DNA of 40,791 nucleotides from a virus. The position numbers were made by a program, and so were the translations under genes. Of the stretch, positions 2,982 through 22,448 are shown one piece after another (positions within the stretch are counted from its first letter, which is position 1; the number at the start of each line of letters is the position of its first letter). Where the stretch lies: the IMG/VR virus record IMGVR_UViG_3300021963_000262, positions 1 through 40,791 of that record; one strand, 5' to 3'. The notes beneath the pieces are model-generated. The model ran no database searches, was not told where the DNA came from, and saw nothing but the letters and a program-made list of their open reading frames with translations.

Positions 2982-3950
2982 ATGCCGACATCATTTAGAA
3001 ATCTAGTATCGATCAAAGGAGACGGGATCTACGCTACTGAGGAACACCTCGAGCGTGGTCGCATCTGGGTCTTTACTCCGGGCAGTAACTATACCAACTA
3101 TCAGATCTGTTGGAAAGCACCCGCAAGAGGTACAGCAGTCATTGAAATTTGGGGTGCTGGAGGATCCGGTGCTAAAATGTGCTGCTGCGGTGGCGGTCTT
3201 CCTGGCAACGCAGGTGCTTATTCTAAAAAAGCAATAAAAGTCGAATCAGGCTGTTATATCTGCGGAGCAGTAGGCCTGAGCTGTGGTAACGCAGATGCTA
3301 TCTGTTTCCGAGGCTGCTCAGATCCAACTGGAGTAACATGGACAGGAAACTGCGGTGCTTCGGGCTGTATGTGTGCTCAAGGTGGAGCAGGTGGTAGAAG
3401 TTTCTGTACTACAGGATCATCATTATATTGTTGTTTTGCTGCCAACGGCTACTGTGCTCGTGGACCATACAACGACAACTGCGGAACAATCTGTAATTAT
3501 TTTGGCGGCATCTGGATCGCCTGCGGTTACGGCGGCGACGTTAATCGCTGCGGCGGATTTTCATGTACAGCATTCTTAGGATGCCAAGGTCCATGTATTT
3601 GTTCTTATACCTATCATGTGGCAACACCTCCAGGGTACGTATCTAAATGCGGCGGCGTTGTGGTATTTGGTACAGAAAACAACAATGAATTTTCAAACTG
3701 GTCGGGCCAAGGTGCTCACCAACATCAATCAGCACTAAACGCACAGTCGCGCCAACCAACACACGGCATCCCATGGGCCTATTGTTGGGGGTTTGGAGGC
3801 GGCTGCGGCTGTTACGAAAACGAAGGTTGCTACACTTATGTAGGACCAGGATATCCAGGAATGGCACCTCATCCATGTGGCGATGTTAGAGACCACGCTC
3901 GACGTGGCGGACACGGTGCTATCCGTATTAGATTTATAGAAGGACAATAA
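2982..3950 (+). CDS. Cys/Gly-rich putative adhesin, copy 1 of 3
   Basis: 322 aa with about 30 cysteines (roughly 9 percent) and many GG pairs. The N-terminus MPTSFRNLV is shared with the next two genes. A Gly-rich core follows (IEIWGAGGSGAKM, CCCGGG, PGNAGAYSKK), then many C-x(2-8)-C spacings, an NWSGQ motif, and a C-terminal VRDHARRGGHGAIRIRF. The IEIWGAGG block resembles the glycine-rich domain of many phage fibre-tip proteins; glycine-rich adhesins such as T-even gp38 are known receptor binders. Such a cysteine load is odd for a cytoplasmically assembled virion protein and suggests bound metal or disulfides formed after lysis. Start chosen at ATG 2982 with AGGAAG upstream. Receptor binding is inferred from composition, paralogy and location. 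Confidence 0.7.
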   Translation: MPTSFRNLVSIKGDGIYATEEHLERGRIWVFTPGSNYTNYQICWKAPARGTAVIEIWGAGGSGAKMCCCGGGLPGNAGAYSKKAIKVESGCYICGAVGLSCGNADAICFRGCSDPTGVTWTGNCGASGCMCAQGGAGGRSFCTTGSSLYCCFAANGYCARGPYNDNCGTICNYFGGIWIACGYGGDVNRCGGFSCTAFLGCQGPCICSYTYHVATPPGYVSKCGGVVVFGTENNNEFSNWSGQGAHQHQSALNAQSRQPTHGIPWAYCWGFGGGCGCYENEGCYTYVGPGYPGMAPHPCGDVRDHARRGGHGAIRIRFIEGQ

Positions 3951-3951
3951 G

Positions 3952-4947
3952 ATGCCAACATCATTTAAAGGTCTTGTCCAAGCAAAATTACCGTTTATTG
4001 CCTACGAAGAAGAAAATCTCGAGCAAGGTCGTATTTGGGCCTACACTCACGGTAACGTCCGTACTAAAATGTGCGGGGAAGTTTGCTGGGTATCACCAGG
4101 TAACGGTATCGCAACTATCGAAATTTGGGGTGCTGGTGGTTCGGGTGCTAAAATGTGCTGTTGCGGTGGAGGAATCCCAGGAAACCCTGGTGCGTATTCG
4201 AAGAAAACTATCTGTGTAGCTTCGGGCTGCTTGATCACAGGATCGGTCGGCTTCAGTTGCGGTAACTCAAACGATTTATGCTTTAGGGGTTGCTCAGAAG
4301 CAACTGGTGTATGTTGGAGATCAACAACTACAAACGGATGTATGTGTGCCCAAGGCGGCCGTGGAGGAACAACTTATTGTTCAACAGGAACATCCTTGTG
4401 GTGCTGTTTTTATGCTGCAGGCTTCTGCGGCACAGGACCATTTAACGCTAACTGCGGTATTATCTGTAATTATGGTAGTGCCACAGCTTCCTGTTGTGCT
4501 GATGCGTTTGGCGGCGATGTAAATTCAAGAGGCGGATTTAGTCGTGCTAGCTTTTTTGGCTGTACACCTAGTTGTCCGTGTTCAACAATATTCCACGTGG
4601 CAACTCCTCCAGGATATTATTCCGACTGCGGTGGAGAAATTACCTATACCAACGAAGGTGACAGCGGACATTCTAACTGGAGTGGGATGGCTCTAAACGG
4701 ATTTCTGTATGGTCTGAACGTAGCTGGTCGACAACCTGGCATGGGACTTAATCCCGCTCACTCGTGTTGGACTGGTAGCAGAACCTGCGGCTGTTACGAC
4801 GGCAACGGCTGTGTTCAATTTGTTCCGCCCGGATTTCCAGGCCTGCCACCATTTCCATGTCCCGACGTTCGAGATCATGCTTATCGTGGAGGCCATGGTG
4901 CTATCCGTATCAGATTCGTACAAGATGGTACAGTAAGAGACTTATAA
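3952..4947 (+). CDS. Cys/Gly-rich putative adhesin, copy 2 of 3
   Basis: 331 aa with about 30 cysteines, beginning one base after the stop of copy 1. It keeps the same framework (MPTSFKGLV, IEIWGAGGSGAKM, CCCGGG, AYSKKTICV, CMCAQGG, NWSG, CGCY, VRDHAYRGGHGAIRIRF) while the loops between differ. It has a short extra tail (VQDGTVRDL). The AAGGA ribosome site lies in the end of copy 1, so the two are probably translationally coupled. The conserved frame with divergent loops fits a duplicated receptor-binding protein under diversifying selection. Confidence 0.7.
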   Translation: MPTSFKGLVQAKLPFIAYEEENLEQGRIWAYTHGNVRTKMCGEVCWVSPGNGIATIEIWGAGGSGAKMCCCGGGIPGNPGAYSKKTICVASGCLITGSVGFSCGNSNDLCFRGCSEATGVCWRSTTTNGCMCAQGGRGGTTYCSTGTSLWCCFYAAGFCGTGPFNANCGIICNYGSATASCCADAFGGDVNSRGGFSRASFFGCTPSCPCSTIFHVATPPGYYSDCGGEITYTNEGDSGHSNWSGMALNGFLYGLNVAGRQPGMGLNPAHSCWTGSRTCGCYDGNGCVQFVPPGFPGLPPFPCPDVRDHAYRGGHGAIRIRFVQDGTVRDL

Positions 4948-4958
4948 GAGATAAAATA

Positions 4959-5927
4959 ATGCCTACATCGTTTCAAAACTTAGTTAGATCTAGAACTACT
5001 GGTAGAGTAGAAGAAAATTTAGAAACCGGAAGGATCTATGTTTTTACTCCCGGTACCATGTACACAAATTTCTGTAACGGATTTTGTTGGAACCCTCCGT
5101 CGACCGGTAAAGCGGTCATAGAAGTTTGGGGTGCTGGTGGGTCAGGTGCTCAGATGTGTTGCTGCGGTGGAGGTACTCCAGGAAACGCCGGTGCGTATTC
5201 GAAGAAAACTATCTGTGTTAGCACAGGCGATTTTGTTAGAGGCACAATTGGTAATAGCTGTGGCAACAGTTCAGCATTATGTTTTAGAGGCTGTTCGGAC
5301 CCAACACAGGTATGTTGGACAGCCTGTAACAATACACAAAACAGTTGTATCTGTGCCCAAGGTGGAGCAGGTGGCCGCGGTATGTGTTCGACAGGAACAT
5401 CATTGTTCTGTTGTTTTGTAAACCAAAGTCATTGCTATACAGGGCCATTTAACGACAACTGCGGTATCATCTGTAACTATTTCAACGGTATATGGATTGC
5501 TTGTAGCTACGGCGGCGATGTAAACTGTTGCGGTCACTTTAGTTGTTCTGTATTCTTTGGCTGCTTGCCACAATGTCCTTGCTGTTTCCAATATCACGTA
5601 GCATCGCCTGCAGGATTTTATAGCTGCGGAGCAAACAACGTAGCAGCGTTCGGAGCAGAAGATGACAACAGACATTCAAACTGGTCAGGTCAACCATTGA
5701 TGCAGTTAACAAATGCGTTCTCTGCGATGCGTAGATCACCTACAATGGGTATCGGACATAACTATTGCTGGAGATCAGATAGAAAATGCGGATGTTACGA
5801 GATGCAGGGATGTATGCACTATGCTCCCCCAGCAACTGGCGGATATCCAACTAGCCCATGTCCAGGCGTTCGTGACCATGCTGGTCGTGGCGGCTGGGGT
5901 GCTGTTAGAATTAGATTCTTTACATAA
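4959..5927 (+). CDS. Cys/Gly-rich putative adhesin, copy 3 of 3
   Basis: 322 aa with about 33 cysteines. The frame stays open upstream to about 4857, but homology to copies 1 and 2 begins exactly at MPTSFQNLV, so the ATG at 4959 is used here. Shared blocks are IEVWGAGGSGAQM, CCCGGG, CICAQGGAGG, NDNCGIICNYF, NWSGQ and VRDHAGRGGWGAVRIRF. Copies 1 and 3 share NGIWIAC/GGIWIAC and NDNCG segments that copy 2 lacks or changes, so 1 and 3 look closer to each other. Likely a virion-tip adhesin or decoration; function inferred only. Confidence 0.7.
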   Translation: MPTSFQNLVRSRTTGRVEENLETGRIYVFTPGTMYTNFCNGFCWNPPSTGKAVIEVWGAGGSGAQMCCCGGGTPGNAGAYSKKTICVSTGDFVRGTIGNSCGNSSALCFRGCSDPTQVCWTACNNTQNSCICAQGGAGGRGMCSTGTSLFCCFVNQSHCYTGPFNDNCGIICNYFNGIWIACSYGGDVNCCGHFSCSVFFGCLPQCPCCFQYHVASPAGFYSCGANNVAAFGAEDDNRHSNWSGQPLMQLTNAFSAMRRSPTMGIGHNYCWRSDRKCGCYEMQGCMHYAPPATGGYPTSPCPGVRDHAGRGGWGAVRIRFFT

Positions 5928-6676: not shown

Positions 6677-7618
6677 ATGGAACAACGCTCTAAAGCATTT
6701 TTTCTAAACGGTGGTGCGGGCCGTATGTTATGTGCAATACCCGCATTTGAATTATACGAAAAAGAATCCGGCGATAAAGATTTTATCATAATCTGCGAAG
6801 GCGGCACTGATGTGTTCAAAGGACATCCTACATTAGACAGCCGCACCTACGATGTTTGGCATAAAAATCTATTCGCAGAAAAGATTAAAAATCGAGATAT
6901 CGTGAGTCCAGAACCTTACAGAATCTGGGAATATTACAACCAACAGTGTTCAATAGCACAGGCATTTGACATTGAGATTAATAAGAAAGGTATAAGAAGT
7001 TTACCTAAACCCACCCTAGTCTTAAGCAAGGACGAGCTACTTACAGGAAGAAAGCTAATCGGTGATGTTAAGAAACAGCTGAAGAAAAGCAAGATCGTTA
7101 TATTCCAACCTTTTGGTAGAGGCATACAAGTAGTTGATGATTCTCTAGTCGACCCTACTTCTAGAAGTATCGAATTCAAGGATACCAAAGCCCTAATTAA
7201 AAAACTTCAAGAAAAAGACTACGGCGTGATCTTAATGAGTGAATTTAAAATAGACTTTACTGATGAAAAATTCAAAGATGAAATCGCTATGCCAGAGAAC
7301 GTTTCTATGCGTCAATGGGCAGCTATTATCAAATATGCTGATCATTTCCTAGGCTGTGATAGTCTTGGTCAACATTTAGCCTACTGCGTTGACAAACCAT
7401 CTACTGTGTTATTCGGATCTACATATCCGATCAATGTATCATACCCAGACAGTAAACTTTTCACTGTGCTTGATATGGGCGAAGAAACTAGAGAATATAG
7501 CCCTATTAGAATTACTATGGATGAAAGAGTTGATAGAAAACACGAATCTATCATGGCCATGACTCCAGAAATACAAACGTATGTTGTAGAAGCTGTCCAA
7601 GGAAAACATAAAAAATGA
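6677..7618 (+). CDS. GT9-family glycosyltransferase (ADP-heptose:LPS heptosyltransferase-like)
   Basis: 313 aa with a two-Rossmann GT-B look. The N-terminus FFLNGGAGRMLCAIPAFELYE matches the GxGD/GGxGR start of glycosyltransferase family 9. After a middle linker, KSKIVIFQPFGRG begins the C-terminal nucleotide-binding half. The family signature D-S-x-G-x-x-H is seen as DSLGQH at residues 228-233, followed by KPSTVLFGSTYP. Known GT9 enzymes move L-glycero-D-manno-heptose from ADP-heptose onto LPS core. The ADP-heptose genes at 19796-22448 make that donor plausible. The acceptor (host LPS, phage protein or other) cannot be read from sequence. GGAG ribosome site; overlaps the next gene by 4 nt (ATGA), so both are likely co-translated. 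Confidence 0.78.
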   Translation: MEQRSKAFFLNGGAGRMLCAIPAFELYEKESGDKDFIIICEGGTDVFKGHPTLDSRTYDVWHKNLFAEKIKNRDIVSPEPYRIWEYYNQQCSIAQAFDIEINKKGIRSLPKPTLVLSKDELLTGRKLIGDVKKQLKKSKIVIFQPFGRGIQVVDDSLVDPTSRSIEFKDTKALIKKLQEKDYGVILMSEFKIDFTDEKFKDEIAMPENVSMRQWAAIIKYADHFLGCDSLGQHLAYCVDKPSTVLFGSTYPINVSYPDSKLFTVLDMGEETREYSPIRITMDERVDRKHESIMAMTPEIQTYVVEAVQGKHKK

Positions 7619-9423
7619 ACGAACCGAAACTTAATTCAGGCTGGATCGCAGCCATAGCACGTGGGCATAACGCAGGTGTATGCCTTTTTAAAGACGGAGA
7701 AATCGTTTTTTCCATCGAAGAAGAACGATTAACAAGGCAAAAGTATGACGGAGGTCCGTTGGCCTCTATGGTTAAAATACTCGAGTATACCGATAAACTA
7801 GATTATCTTGTAGTCGCTCACACACAAAAATTACAGGACACTGCTGGAAGAATTGATTTTAGCGGTGACGATGTCTACACAGGCCTAGCAAGAAAGCTAG
7901 GTTTGATCAGCCGTAAAGAGGACAATTATAATCATCCTCAAGTAGTTGATTTAAGTTTCATGCATCATAAATTACATGCCGCTTGTGCTTTTTATCGCAG
8001 CGGCTTTGACGATGCTGTAGCATTGATTGTCGACGGTGCCGGTACATTCATCCAATTGATGTACGGCAATGAACCTCTTTGGGTATGGGAAGTTGAATCA
8101 ATCATTGACTGCGGCTATCCATCACAGTTTAAAACGCTTTATAAAAATTACGGCGCCAAAGAACCAGTCGCTGGAACACACATGGACCAGTGCCCATCGG
8201 ATCAGTTCGGAGAAGCTGGAGATTTTCATGAAGCATGGCTTTCGGATAGAGCAGGTATAGTTAAGACCTACGAGGCTGTCACCGAATATTGTGGGTTTTC
8301 GTCTATCGAAGCAGGAAAAACCATGGGTCTATTTCCTTATGGTCAAGCCAACGATAAGATTCCTAAGTTGTTCGATTTTACTTCGAAGGTTCCGTTGTCT
8401 AATAGGAATCTAATCGTGCCTGCCTATCCATCTTCTTCTATCGTCAATAGTGCTTTGTTTGACTATCTTGACGAATTACCTAAAGAAGGCGAGGATGTTA
8501 CCAAGCTACAGAGTCGCAGAGATCTTGCCTATGCTTGTCAGACACAGACACAGGAACAGGTTGTCCGCTTAATTAAAAAAGCAGTAGCACTAAGCGGAAA
8601 GAAAAATGTTGTAATCAGTGGCGGTTACGGTCTAAACTGTGTGGCTAACTATCATTATCTCGAGCAGCTCAAAGATGAAGGAATTAATCTTTATGTTGAA
8701 CCGATCAGTAATGACGCTGGCACAGCTATGGGGGCTGGCATGATGTTCTGGAGAGCTTTGTCAGACAGTAGAGAAAAACAAAAGCTAGACACGCTGTACC
8801 TAGGCCCACAATACACTTATACCGAAAGAGAAATCAAAGAAAAAGTACAATATGCTGGCGGTGAAGTCTTAGATGCTACTAACAAAGATGTTGTTAAACT
8901 TCTACGTGAAAAGAATATTGTTACTATATTCCAAGGGCGTTCAGAAAATGGGCCACGTGCTTTGGGTAATCGTTCTGTGCTATTTGACCCAACTTTTGAA
9001 GATGGCAAGGACTTTGTAAACACGGTTAAACGTCGTGAATATTTCCGCCCATTCGCTGGATCTATCATACATGAACATGTTCATGAGTGGTTTGATCTAC
9101 GCGGTATGGACGAAACTCCTCACATGATGTATGCAGTAAATTGTAAGCCTGGTGTAGCTGAAAAGATTCCGAGCATTATACACGTGGACGGTACTTGTAG
9201 GATACAGACTGTGAAACGCGACCAGAATCCTCATTATTACGATCTAATCAAAGAATTTTATGATCAAACAGGCATTCCTATCGTGTTTAATACTAGCTTT
9301 AATCTAGGTGGTGATCCTTTAGTAGAAACGCTAGACGATGCCATTGAAACGCTGGTAAAAAGTGATATAGAATATCTTTTCTTGCCTGAATATGGTAAGC
9401 TGATAAAGATAGTCAATAGCTAA
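7615..9423 (+). CDS. NodU/TobZ/CmcH-family O-carbamoyltransferase
   Basis: 602 aa, full length for the family. N-terminal Kae1-like domain: GHNAGVCLFKDGEIVFSIEEER (about residues 18-38), metal-ligand pattern HHxxH at 117-121 (HHKLH), and LIVDGAG around 138-143. A GGYGLNCVAN block follows in mid-protein, then GRSENGPRALGNRS from residue 441 and the C-terminal carbamoyl-transfer domain with REYFRPFAGSI and FNTSFNLGGDPLVE. Family enzymes make carbamoyl-AMP from carbamoyl phosphate and ATP, then carbamoylate a sugar or Nod-factor hydroxyl. A relative, WapO, is linked to 7-O-carbamoyl-heptose in Pseudomonas LPS core. Overlap with the GT9 gene suggests that the transferred sugar is carbamoylated (inference). 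Confidence 0.88.
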   Translation: MNEPKLNSGWIAAIARGHNAGVCLFKDGEIVFSIEEERLTRQKYDGGPLASMVKILEYTDKLDYLVVAHTQKLQDTAGRIDFSGDDVYTGLARKLGLISRKEDNYNHPQVVDLSFMHHKLHAACAFYRSGFDDAVALIVDGAGTFIQLMYGNEPLWVWEVESIIDCGYPSQFKTLYKNYGAKEPVAGTHMDQCPSDQFGEAGDFHEAWLSDRAGIVKTYEAVTEYCGFSSIEAGKTMGLFPYGQANDKIPKLFDFTSKVPLSNRNLIVPAYPSSSIVNSALFDYLDELPKEGEDVTKLQSRRDLAYACQTQTQEQVVRLIKKAVALSGKKNVVISGGYGLNCVANYHYLEQLKDEGINLYVEPISNDAGTAMGAGMMFWRALSDSREKQKLDTLYLGPQYTYTEREIKEKVQYAGGEVLDATNKDVVKLLREKNIVTIFQGRSENGPRALGNRSVLFDPTFEDGKDFVNTVKRREYFRPFAGSIIHEHVHEWFDLRGMDETPHMMYAVNCKPGVAEKIPSIIHVDGTCRIQTVKRDQNPHYYDLIKEFYDQTGIPIVFNTSFNLGGDPLVETLDDAIETLVKSDIEYLFLPEYGKLIKIVNS

Positions 9424-19761: not shown

Positions 19762-19796
19762 TTGACAAACAGACTCGTGACTGTATAATTACAGCA
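19762..19796 (+). promoter_or_regulatory. Consensus sigma70 promoter producing a leaderless mRNA
   Basis: TTGACA at 19762-19767 and TATAAT at 19784-19789 are both perfect hexamers, 16 bases apart. Only TACAGC separates the -10 from the ATG at 19796, so +1 should fall at or next to the A of the start codon. There is no room for a ribosome site. This is the strongest host-type promoter in the window and drives the heptose cassette. Confidence 0.8.
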
Positions 19797-20188
19797 TGAG
19801 TCTGATTTTTGTTAATGGAACTTTCGATATTCTTCATCCCGGTCACGTCGAACTTTTAAATTACGCTAAAAGTTTAGGTGGCCATCTCATGGTCGGGATC
19901 GATTCAGACGAACGAGTACGACAACTAAAAGGACCACAGCGTCCAATCAACAACCAAAAGCATAGAGCATTTATGCTTGAAAATTTAAAAGCAGTTGACG
20001 AAGTTGTTGTTTTCAATAATGATGTAGAACTTATTAACCTAGTCGCAGCCTGCGACATTATGGTCAAAGGCAGTGATTATATGGGCAAGCCCATAGTTGG
20101 TGACATTGTCTGTGACGAAATCGTATTTTTTGATATATTAGATGACTATTCAACAACCAAGATCATACAAAATATTGCTAATCGGTGA
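19796..20188 (+). CDS. hldE-C: Heptose-1-phosphate adenylyltransferase (HldE C-terminal domain homologue)
   Basis: 130 aa, the size of a single nucleotidyltransferase domain. GTFDILHPGHVELL at residues 8-21 is the classic GTFDxxHxGH signature; H14 and H17 form HxGH, which binds the nucleotide. Later VGIDSDERVRQLKGPQRPI and YSTTKIIQNI (compare the ISSTxII motif) complete the cytidylyltransferase-like fold. Known role: D-glycero-beta-D-manno-heptose 1-phosphate + ATP to ADP-heptose. In most bacteria this is the C-terminal half of bifunctional HldE; here it is a separate gene lying before the kinase. A related glycerol-3-phosphate-type nucleotidyltransferase is the alternative, but the neighbours favour heptose. 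Start is at a leaderless promoter. Confidence 0.85.
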   Translation: MSLIFVNGTFDILHPGHVELLNYAKSLGGHLMVGIDSDERVRQLKGPQRPINNQKHRAFMLENLKAVDEVVVFNNDVELINLVAACDIMVKGSDYMGKPIVGDIVCDEIVFFDILDDYSTTKIIQNIANR

Positions 20189-20891
20189 TGACTGTGTTGA
20201 TGTGTACCAGTATGGTACAGTTGATCGCATCAGCCCAGAAGCACCAGTTCCGGTGTTTAAGTTCGAGTATGAAGAACGCAAGCCGGGCATGGCAGGCAAT
20301 GTGGCCCGTAATCTAGAAGCCTTAGACTGTGAAGTAAATTATCTCCACGGAGAAACTTCTACAAAAACAAGACTAGTAGACATTCGCAGCAAACAACAGA
20401 TCGTTAGGATAGATACTGATCTAATATCGCCACCGATTGAATTCGAAACTGCGATACCTAAAGTTTATGATGCTATCGTTATCAGCGACTATAACAAAGG
20501 AACTGTTTCCTACGACATAATCGAAGAGGCAATAGCTACAAGGATTCCTGTTTTTGTTGACACGAAAAAAACGGATCTAGAAAGATTACAAGGTGCGTGG
20601 GTTAAAATCAATGAACTAGAATATAGTAAAATAAAAAGCGAATGCTCGGGACTTATTGTTACCCGAGGAGGCAAAGGGGCTAGAGCAGTATTTCATGAGT
20701 TTTCTACGTCTGCCCCCAGCGTTGAAGTTGTTGACGTTACCGGAGCAGGAGATACATTTTTAGCAGCCCTCGCCTACGGATATCTAAACACTAACAATAT
20801 TAAATCAGCTATGGAGTTTGCCACCGTAGCTGCGAGTATAACAGTACAGCATGTAGGATGCTATGCTCCAAGATTAGAGGAAATAAAATGA
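20142..20891 (+). CDS. hldE-N: Heptose-7-phosphate kinase (HldE N-terminal, PfkB/ribokinase family)
   Basis: 249 aa. Starts inside the adenylyltransferase gene (47-nt overlap, different frame), so translation is likely coupled. Family motifs: IGDDCVDVYQYG near the N-terminus, PGMAGNVARNLEAL at 48-61 (PfkB signature 1, HldE-like), SDYNKG at 115-120, and DVTGAGDTFLAAL at 198-210 with D204 as expected catalytic base. Reaction: heptose 7-phosphate + ATP to heptose 1,7-bisphosphate. It is shorter than the roughly 310-320-aa bacterial kinase domain, with shortened loops between 65 and 110 and around 160, but all signatures remain. No separate ribosome site is evident. Confidence 0.85.
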   Translation: MTIQQPRSYKILLIGDDCVDVYQYGTVDRISPEAPVPVFKFEYEERKPGMAGNVARNLEALDCEVNYLHGETSTKTRLVDIRSKQQIVRIDTDLISPPIEFETAIPKVYDAIVISDYNKGTVSYDIIEEAIATRIPVFVDTKKTDLERLQGAWVKINELEYSKIKSECSGLIVTRGGKGARAVFHEFSTSAPSVEVVDVTGAGDTFLAALAYGYLNTNNIKSAMEFATVAASITVQHVGCYAPRLEEIK

Positions 20892-21256
20892 CACAAAGAC
20901 TAACAGGTAAAGTTGATAAGGGCTGGGGCTTTGAAATAATTTGGGCCACCAATGATCACTACTGCGGCAAGATTCTAGTTTTTGAAAAGGCAGGAAATAA
21001 ATTTTCTATGCACTTTCATAGAGCCAAAGATGAAACTTGGTTCGTAAATTCTGGAAAATTTAAACTACGTTGGATTGACACCCGAGACGCTAAAATCTAT
21101 GAACAAGAATTAAATGAAGGCGATACGTGGCACAATCCACCACTCCAACCTCATCAGCTGGAAGCAATGACTGACGGTGCCATGATATTTGAAGTCAGCA
21201 CAGCAGATTCAGTCGAAGACAATTTTAGACTAGCTCCAGGAGACAGCCAAAAATGA
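20888..21256 (+). CDS. Single-domain cupin, possible sugar isomerase or epimerase
   Basis: 122 aa from ATG 20888, which overlaps the kinase stop (ATGA) and has GAGGAAAT upstream. The open frame back to 20858 is ignored because the cupin fold starts at KGWGFEIIWA. Cupin motif 1 is HFHRAKDETWFVNSG, with ligands H42, H44, E49 and turn G56. Motif 2 is around GDTWHNPPLQPHQLEA. Its closest look is the mannose-6-phosphate-isomerase-like cupins that occur in sugar-nucleotide clusters; the tail SVEDNFRLAPGDSQ is typical of these. Substrate unknown. It lies between kinase and phosphatase in a heptose operon, so action on a heptose phosphate or heptose nucleotide is plausible but unproven. Confidence 0.8.
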   Translation: MTQRLTGKVDKGWGFEIIWATNDHYCGKILVFEKAGNKFSMHFHRAKDETWFVNSGKFKLRWIDTRDAKIYEQELNEGDTWHNPPLQPHQLEAMTDGAMIFEVSTADSVEDNFRLAPGDSQK

Positions 21257-21561
21257 TTTTTATTGTTGACATCGATGGTACTATTTGTTCTATGGAATTT
21301 GACAGCAACGGTAATGTAGACTATGCTAAAACAAAACCTTACATGGATAGAATAGCTAAAATCAATCAGCTATTCGATGAAGGTCACGAAATACATTACT
21401 ACACAGCACGTGGGTCACGTTCGGGGATCGATAGGACTGAAATCACGCATAAACAGATGAACGACTGGGGAGCAAAGTATACTAGTCTTCAACTACGTAA
21501 ACCACACTATGATGTATGGATCGATGATAAGTCTGTTCATCCGGAGCATTTTTTTAAATGA
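21253..21561 (+). CDS. Minimal HAD-family phosphatase, candidate GmhB substitute
   Basis: 102 aa. All four HAD motifs are visible: DIDGT with D6 and D8 (motif I), T51 in YYTARGS (motif II), K83 (motif III) and IDDK with D91/D92 (motif IV). It has no cap domain and is about half the size of bacterial GmhB. ATGA overlaps with both neighbours make it part of the operon. In the ADP-heptose pathway heptose 1,7-bisphosphate must lose its 7-phosphate before adenylylation; this gene sits where that enzyme would be expected. Small HAD proteins of this type also occur in capsule loci with unclear substrates, so the specific reaction is inference. Confidence 0.75.
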   Translation: MIFIVDIDGTICSMEFDSNGNVDYAKTKPYMDRIAKINQLFDEGHEIHYYTARGSRSGIDRTEITHKQMNDWGAKYTSLQLRKPHYDVWIDDKSVHPEHFFK

Positions 21562-22448
21562 TAGTCGTAACTGGTGGAGCGGGATTCATTGGCTCTAATA
21601 TTGTTAAAAGATTGAACAGTCGATATGTCTCTGATATTTTAATAGTAGACGACATTAATCAAGATAAAGAATCTAACTTAAAAAATTTAACATTTACTGA
21701 TATAATGTCAACTGATGATTTTTATGGTAGATTCAATCATTGGTTAAAAGTGGAAGCTATCTTCCACGAAGGAGCGATATCTTCCACTACTGAAAAAGAC
21801 CCATTGAGGATTGATCAATATAATCTACAACCTAGTTATTGGTTAATTGACCAAGCAGTACAGAATAATTTATTTTTATCCTATGCTAGTTCAGCATCGG
21901 TATACGGAGATAGCAATACTTTCCAAGAAAATCAACCGCTGATGCCCAGATCTTTATATGCTTCTAGCAAAATGAGAATAGATCAGTATGTGTATTCGAC
22001 ACTATTAGATTATCCGGGTGCTCGAATACAAGGGTGGAGATATTTTAATGTATATGGCAACAATGAAAATCACAAAAAAGATCAGGCCAGTCCTGTGACA
22101 AAATTTAGACATCAAGCCGAGACCACAGGAAAAATCAAAGTATTTAGAGGCAGTGAAAACTTCCAAAGAGATTTCATCTGTGTTGATGATGTAGTTGATG
22201 TTAAATTAAAATCTTTTGATTTAAATTTTAATGGGATTTTTAACCTAGGAACTGGTTCTGCTGTTTCATTCCGACAGGTAGCCGAAGCAGTGGCTGAAAA
22301 ATATTCAGCAGATATAGAAGAAATTGATTTTCCTAGAGAACTAATAAATCAATATCAAAAATACACCTGCTCAGACAACACAAGGTTGTTAAGTATGCTA
22401 GGAGATTATCAGTTTAAGACTGTTGAATCTTTTCTTTCAACGACATAA
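21558..22448 (+). CDS. hldD: ADP-L-glycero-D-manno-heptose 6-epimerase (HldD)
   Basis: 296 aa extended short-chain dehydrogenase. NAD(P) site GGAGFIGS at 6-13; SSASVYG with the active-site Ser near 111-114; Y134-x3-K138 catalytic pair. HldD-specific features are the segments HEGAISSTTEKD, WRYFNVYGNNENHKKDQASPV (K173 matches the second catalytic lysine region of E. coli HldD) and SENFQRDFICVDDVVDV, plus the closing FKTVESF. It converts ADP-D,D-heptose to ADP-L,D-heptose, the donor for LPS heptosyltransferases. Start overlaps the HAD gene by ATGA. Its 3' end overlaps the convergent minus-strand gene by 35 nt. Slightly shorter than the bacterial enzyme (about 310 aa). Confidence 0.9.
   Translation: MIVVTGGAGFIGSNIVKRLNSRYVSDILIVDDINQDKESNLKNLTFTDIMSTDDFYGRFNHWLKVEAIFHEGAISSTTEKDPLRIDQYNLQPSYWLIDQAVQNNLFLSYASSASVYGDSNTFQENQPLMPRSLYASSKMRIDQYVYSTLLDYPGARIQGWRYFNVYGNNENHKKDQASPVTKFRHQAETTGKIKVFRGSENFQRDFICVDDVVDVKLKSFDLNFNGIFNLGTGSAVSFRQVAEAVAEKYSADIEEIDFPRELINQYQKYTCSDNTRLLSMLGDYQFKTVESFLSTT

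Follow-up and report, generated by a model that had tools for sequence, protein, structure and literature searches.

Does a large aquatic T4-like phage carry its own complete route to ADP-L,D-heptose, and which gene product would then take the first step? The question is raised by a cassette at positions 19796–22448 of an IMG/VR viral fragment (IMGVR_UViG_3300021963_000262), hereafter the window, meaning the whole 40.8 kb stretch of DNA that was analysed. The cassette comprises five overlapping open reading frames (ORFs) on the same strand, located where a preliminary description of this DNA had placed five tightly overlapping genes:

19796..20188, + strand: HldC-like D-glycero-D-manno-heptose-1-phosphate adenylyltransferase (RfaE domain II), 130 aa; from TIGR02199 and PHROG 7878
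20142..20891, + strand: compact HldA-like D-glycero-D-manno-heptose-7-phosphate kinase (PfkB), 249 aa; from TIGR02198, PDB 4e84 and the Asp of GAGD
20888..21256, + strand: cupin of 122 aa, predicted to replace GmhA as sedoheptulose-7-phosphate isomerase; from the AlphaFold (AF2) model, active site and context
21253..21561, + strand: small HAD protein of 102 aa, predicted to be the phosphatase from its place in the GmhB slot; has the motifs DxDGT and DDK, matches EcbF-BcbF weakly, PHROG 1238
21558..22448, + strand: HldD, ADP-glyceromanno-heptose 6-epimerase, 296 aa; from TIGR02197, PDB 1eq2 and Y134/K138/K173

In Escherichia coli, the ADP-L,D-heptose pathway consists of GmhA, HldE, GmhB and HldD, and both the isomerase (GmhA) and the phosphatase (GmhB) are required. 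The window kinase, adenylyltransferase and epimerase are homologous to their E. coli counterparts, with conserved catalytic residues, whereas GmhA is replaced by the cupin and GmhB by the small HAD, the kinase and adenylyltransferase are separate genes, and the whole is phage encoded. We propose that the five genes cover all five steps. The cupin would isomerise sedoheptulose-7-phosphate, the HldA-like kinase would add the 1-phosphate, the HAD would remove the 7-phosphate, the HldC-like enzyme would adenylylate the sugar, and HldD would epimerise C6 to give ADP-L,D-heptose. A phage GT9 enzyme would then transfer the heptose, and a NodU-type enzyme would carbamoylate the glycan. We consider this route, with the cupin as the GmhA replacement and the GT9 and carbamoyltransferase as its output, to be probable. 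What was observed directly is the identity of the genes, the conservation of their catalytic residues, the fold, the linkage and the exchange of GmhA for the cupin in cellular genomes. The preliminary description had seen a near-complete pathway; its recognised enzymes stand, but it left the cupin without a role, and with the cupin as the probable missing isomerase the route is plausibly complete from sedoheptulose-7-phosphate.

In profile searches, the nucleotidyltransferase matched TIGR02199 with E = 6.3e-37 (126.6 bits, below the curated equivalog cut-off of 181.5, hence “HldC-like”) and PHROG 7878 with E = 1.8e-41. Its TIGR02199 score far exceeded that of the glycerol-3-phosphate cytidylyltransferase model (58.8 bits). 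The kinase matched TIGR02198 with E = 3.1e-46 (157.9 bits, below the cut-off of 345, hence “HldA-like” and not an equivalog). Its best PDB match was HldA from B. cenocepacia (4e84, E = 2.7e-20), with which the heptose-kinase N-terminal block (RISPEAPVPV) aligned, and the PfkB catalytic Asp204 of the GAGD motif was invariant (61/61). HldD matched TIGR02197 with E = 4.5e-81 (272.4 bits; curated cut-off 274.6) and PDB entry 1eq2 with E = 5.8e-60. Its Tyr134, Lys138 and Lys173 aligned with Tyr140, Lys144 and Lys178 of the E. coli enzyme and were invariant in all 59 non-redundant phage HldDs; we take Tyr140 and Lys178 to be the acid/base catalytic residues of E. coli HldD, and Lys144 to be the Lys of YxxxK. 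The HldD-specific blocks reported earlier therefore hold. Moreover, the nucleotidyltransferase, kinase, HldD and GT9 are all closest to heptose families, as had been claimed, and the profile and structure searches proposed as a check placed neither the nucleotidyltransferase nor the kinase in another sugar family. Relative to HldA, the kinase and its phage homologues lack ~ 50–60 residues, which would lie after the N-terminal block and before TKxRL; they resemble a natural minimal heptose kinase.

The cupin matched only generic cupin models in profile searches. Its best start is at 20888, after AGAGGAAATAAA; the longest ORF begins at 20858. In phages and cells alike, the family shares an invariant pattern of a KWGxE-type start, YCxK, HxHxxKxE, a second His, E[VF]ST, Asp and Arg. 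The AF2 model (predicted local distance difference test score, pLDDT, of 91.6) resembled the CapF cupin domain (Z 15.6), an archaeal cupin phosphomannose isomerase (Z 14.8) and D-lyxose isomerases (Z 13.5), the last with the highest identity among the structural matches (24–26%). Such matches alone prove little, because cupin folds are all alike. The profile aligned with the D-lyxose isomerase of B. subtilis through YCxKxL, HxH and KxETF; the score against PF07385 (17.5 bits) was under the gathering score of 20.8, so that the cupin is likened to this family and not assigned to it. By analogy, the C1–C2 conversion of a ketose to a manno-aldose by D-lyxose isomerase is the same chemistry as would convert sedoheptulose-7-phosphate to D-glycero-D-manno-heptose-7-phosphate. 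D-lyxose isomerases also accept mannose and fructose.

In the Thermofilum D-lyxose isomerase, the residues K62, H75, H77, K86, E88, H143, E156 and D163 bind the sugar, and mutating the equivalents of K86, E156 and D163 abolished isomerase activity (PMC8378251). The first seven correspond to K28, H42, H44, K47, E49, H89 and E102 of the phage cupin, all invariant. Compared with the D-lyxose/D-mannose isomerase cupins (2y0o, 7nzo, 3kmh), the phage protein thus shares the fold, HxH, KxE, the second His and Glu, and the YCxKxL segment; it differs in being shorter (~ 120 aa), in its KGWGxE and E[VF]ST..D..R motifs, and in its linkage to heptose-phosphate genes. Oxalate decarboxylase, quercetinase and cysteine dioxygenase were also considered; the top raw matches were generic cupins, and context and the HxHxxKxE motif favour an isomerase.

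The same genes occur in cultured cyanophages, namely the Prochlorococcus/Synechococcus phages P-SSM2, S-CAM1 and S-SSM7 as well as S-CAM3, S-SM2, P-TIM68, Sf-FS3 and others, and the cassette was found in at least 80 IMG/VR loci, so a self-contained route of this kind is not unusual, contrary to what had been supposed. Its synteny is not due to chance, because homologues keep the gene arrangement across many contigs. Where the kinase had 3 kb or more of flanking sequence on each side (55 loci, near copies included, so that independent cases are fewer), it was accompanied by the nucleotidyltransferase in every locus, by the cupin in 54 and by HldD in 53. A GmhA-type SIS domain (PF13580) was found in none of 27 phage records, complete cyanophage genomes and contigs of 340–364 kb included. 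The absence of GmhA, together with the near-constant company of cupin and kinase, argues for the cupin as a non-homologous isomerase. In P-TIM68 (L085, 4689–6913), transketolase-like and alcohol dehydrogenase-like genes directly precede the heptose genes; the former could be related to the supply of sedoheptulose-7-phosphate.

Cellular genomes point the same way. We scanned GTDB genomes with the cupin and found, in DPANN archaea and one member of Nomurabacteria, an operon cupin-hldD-hldA-gmhB-hldC with no gmhA within it. In an archaeal sample of 188 genomes of one class, HldA (≥ 200 bits) was present in 26, and the cupin (≥ 100 bits) in 10 of these against 0 of 46 HldA-negative genomes (p 1e-5). 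The cupin adjoined HldA in four archaeal genomes and shared its open frame in four more; three of the latter encode in-frame HldA-cupin fusions of 439–443 aa, and the fourth is cut by a contig end. GmhA (100 bits) occurred in none of the 10 cupin genomes and in 7 of the 16 other HldA genomes, where five of the seven directly adjoin HldA. Three genomes of the sample had originally come to notice by way of their cupin; without them, the counts were 7/23 against 0/46 for the cupin (p ~ 2e-4) and 0/7 against 7/16 for GmhA (p ~ 0.05). When all the genomes seen are taken together, the exclusion is incomplete, because two other archaeal genomes with the cupin operon carry GmhA elsewhere, clustered with a GHMP-type kinase. 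These second heptose-type clusters (L181 and L180, genomes G027 and G029; the one in L180 also has GmhB) likely represent a GDP-heptose route. Among 30 Binatota-type genomes selected for having the cupin, all encoded HldE, 26 lacked GmhA at 100 bits and none reached the curated cut-off; the cupin lay near HldE in L129, L175 and L148.

Fusion to the enzyme that uses the product, HldA, and replacement of the known isomerase are standard genomic signs of a non-homologous substitution, here of GmhA. We therefore think it fairly probable that the KGWG cupin represents a new, non-SIS class of sedoheptulose-7-phosphate isomerase, common to T4-like phages, DPANN archaea and Binatota, that enables a phage to synthesise ADP-heptose even where the host has no such pathway at all. 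If so, the first step of a core sugar pathway has an enzyme that had gone unrecognised. This would explain heptose synthesis in archaea, Binatota and phages without GmhA, and many phage genomes would lose misleading database labels such as cysteine dioxygenase and phosphoheptose isomerase. Phage carriage of the cassette is already known, annotated piecemeal as lipopolysaccharide (LPS)-type genes; rfaE in pelagimyophages, for instance, was reported as such (PMC7029224). The new claim is the cupin as GmhA replacement, which we put forward from comparative genomics. We found no paper assigning this cupin, or linking any cupin with phosphoheptose isomerase, in a literature search that lacked most subscription journals.

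It could also be that ADP-heptose is made but a host GmhA isomerises, with the cupin acting later in C3/C5 epimerisation or another sugar modification. RmlC-type cupins do act in heptose modification in Campylobacter (PMC7949155), cupin functions are diverse, and some hosts will have GmhA. Nevertheless, the cupin is fused to HldA and swaps with GmhA in archaea, its metal ligands and the Lys47 and Glu49 of aldose-ketose isomerases are conserved, and the cassette has no 4,6-dehydratase to make the substrate of a C3/C5 epimerase. We regard this explanation as unlikely.

The phosphatase step of the proposed pathway is assigned by position. The window HAD gave only a weak profile match (EcbF-BcbF, 4e-4) and none to the GmhB model TIGR00213. 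In relatives, however, three HAD types fill the same slot: the small window type in 6 loci, a GmhB-like protein of ~ 215 aa (TIGR00213 ~ 1e-26) in 26, and an NT5C-like HAD in at least 12. This repeated replacement points to a need for the phosphatase step. Membership of the HAD in the GmhB family was rejected by profile; the phosphatase role, earlier proposed as plausible, was kept from its position, given the GmhB-like proteins in the same slot. The HAD was rejected as a GmhA as well, having no SIS domain. We must also note that PHROG 1238, which contains the window HAD, is labelled phosphoheptose isomerase, a misnomer for a HAD that appears in RefSeq phage records, and that PHROG 7851, which contains the cupin, is labelled cysteine dioxygenase, also carried into RefSeq phage records. 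PHROG names were not accepted as functions.

Several points weigh against the five-step pathway. HldD, like the nucleotidyltransferase and the kinase, scores under its curated equivalog cut-off, and the kinase has 249 aa against 315, with ~ 50–60 HldA residues absent. For Asp163 of D-lyxose isomerase, the window cupin has no exact counterpart, the equivalent residue being shifted in its subfamily. No phosphatase was recognised near the kinase in 36 of 80 loci. The test of GmhA/cupin exclusivity is small (p ~ 0.02–0.05) and drawn from incomplete metagenome-assembled genomes (MAGs), three of the genomes having been found through the cupin. Some KGWG cupins occur in other contexts (beside phosphoribosyl pyrophosphate synthetase or GMD, or alone), a few of them are closer in the tree to the phage cupins than the HldA fusions are, and the phage and archaeal hld-linked cupins fall on different sides of the midpoint root. 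Lastly, we infer what each enzyme catalyses, which sugar results and where it is attached.

The low scores and the compact kinase, as well as PHROG 8133 and 8954, which have no assigned function, would also suit enzymes that make another activated sugar, e.g. a pentose or hexose linked to CDP or ADP, with which DNA or glycans are modified, and that resemble heptose enzymes only by descent. We find this very unlikely: heptose enzymes are the best matches at every step, including an HldD with the second acid/base Lys173, relatives have GmhB-like proteins in the phosphatase slot, and the GT9 has a heptosyltransferase fold.

The output of the proposed heptose pathway would come from a second block of the window, 10 kb upstream of the cassette, where the following features lie:

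6677..7618, + strand: GT9 heptosyltransferase-fold glycosyltransferase, 313 aa; from PF01075, AF2 fold and PHROG 8954
7615..9423, + strand: NodU/Nol-type carbamoyltransferase, 602 aa; PF16861 7e-58, PF02543 4e-26, PHROG 1601 1e-165
2982..5927, + strand: three tandem Gly/Cys-rich paralogues, adhesin-like (PHROG 4205), ~ 320–356 aa, next to the GT9

The GT9 noted earlier at 6677 was confirmed by PF01075 (25.1 bits, above the cut-off of 22) and by its fold. It had no sequence match in the PDB; the AF2 model (pLDDT 90.2) gave Z 23.4 to the GT9 enzyme 3tov, 20.5 to WaaF, 19.8 to TibC and 19.4 to WaaC, the next other GT-B enzyme reaching Z 11.9. The carbamoyltransferase matched both the N and C Carbam_trans domains (92.7 and 195.4 bits). 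The GT9 was beside the carbamoyltransferase in 10/10 records and at most 1.1 kb from it in all 75 scorable loci. The pair at 6677–9423, of which the preliminary description had named the GT9 alone, belongs to the same module as the cassette. In Pseudomonas, the LPS core heptose is carbamoylated by WapO, a putative carbamoyltransferase (PMC8005017). The window module resembles Pseudomonas WaaC/WaaF with WapO (7-O-carbamoyl heptose in the LPS core) in combining a GT9 heptosyltransferase fold with a NodU-type carbamoyltransferase; it differs in being phage borne and in the pairing of the two genes in nearly all loci. From the fold, this linkage and the WapO precedent, the module is likely to produce a heptose glycan that is carbamoylated.

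Its acceptor would most likely be virion fibre or adhesin proteins, or the host surface. The pathway may operate as proposed with host LPS or another host surface glycan, and not a virion glycan, as acceptor, leading to superinfection exclusion. This is a real possibility, though we lean slightly away from it. GT9 and WapO-type carbamoyltransferases work on the LPS core, genes of this sort are counted among the LPS genes in the pelagimyophage paper (PMC7029224), and early expression could be permitted by a predicted promoter:

19762..19789, + strand: sigma70-type promoter-like site (predicted), TTGACA-16-TATAAT, 12/12 consensus match, directly upstream of the cassette

On the other hand, cyanobacterial LPS is without heptose (PMC4390846), yet cyanophages carry the same module, so that their acceptor may well be the virion. 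Because several such phages infect cyanobacteria with heptose-free LPS, the sugar probably goes elsewhere, e.g. to the virion, and, if the proposed reading is right, the long-assumed, unproven role of the cyanophage “LPS genes” becomes testable. Moreover, the module sits among tail-fibre/adhesin genes, and the GT9 fold is as near to that of TibC, which heptosylates protein, as to that of WaaC. The Gly/Cys-rich paralogues may be neighbours or targets of the glycan module. Their homologues adjoin the GT9 in 56 of 76 loci, and PHROG 4205 is widespread in large aquatic phages.

The sugar (“LPS”) cluster of cyanophages (P-SSM2, S-CAM1, S-SSM7, Sf-FS3) contains the same seven genes at ~ 36–62% identity. 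In most cyanophages, the order is GT9-like, carbamoyltransferase, nucleotidyltransferase, kinase, HAD, cupin, HldD, near neck genes. That cluster is contiguous, with HldD on the opposite strand, and in it the HAD bears the annotation phosphoheptose isomerase and the cupin that of cysteine dioxygenase or nucleotidyltransferase. In the window, by contrast, the genes form two blocks separated by 10 kb, and every one of them is on the + strand. The window phage itself has T4-like structural genes (tail sheath, tail tube, gp14/gp15-type connector genes), terminase and single-stranded DNA-binding protein, and its cassette is flanked by a 2695-aa structural-like protein on one side and an oppositely oriented gp15-type block on the other. 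psbA and psbD were not found in 22 IMG/VR relatives, so a cyanobacterial host for the window phage is not supported.

Apparent phage contigs with the cassette were also present in GTDB MAGs (L101, L102, L153–L158; Neomarinimicrobiota, Rhodobacteraceae, Bifidobacterium breve, Planctomycetaceae and others), recognised by the cassette together with phage structural genes or phage-like synteny. In the close relatives L003–L005, TTGACA and a TATAAA-type box likewise precede the nucleotidyltransferase. Several relatives (L023, L038–L047) have a tRNA 3′-end-like sequence directly before the cassette, upstream of the nucleotidyltransferase, hinting at a position beside tRNA genes.

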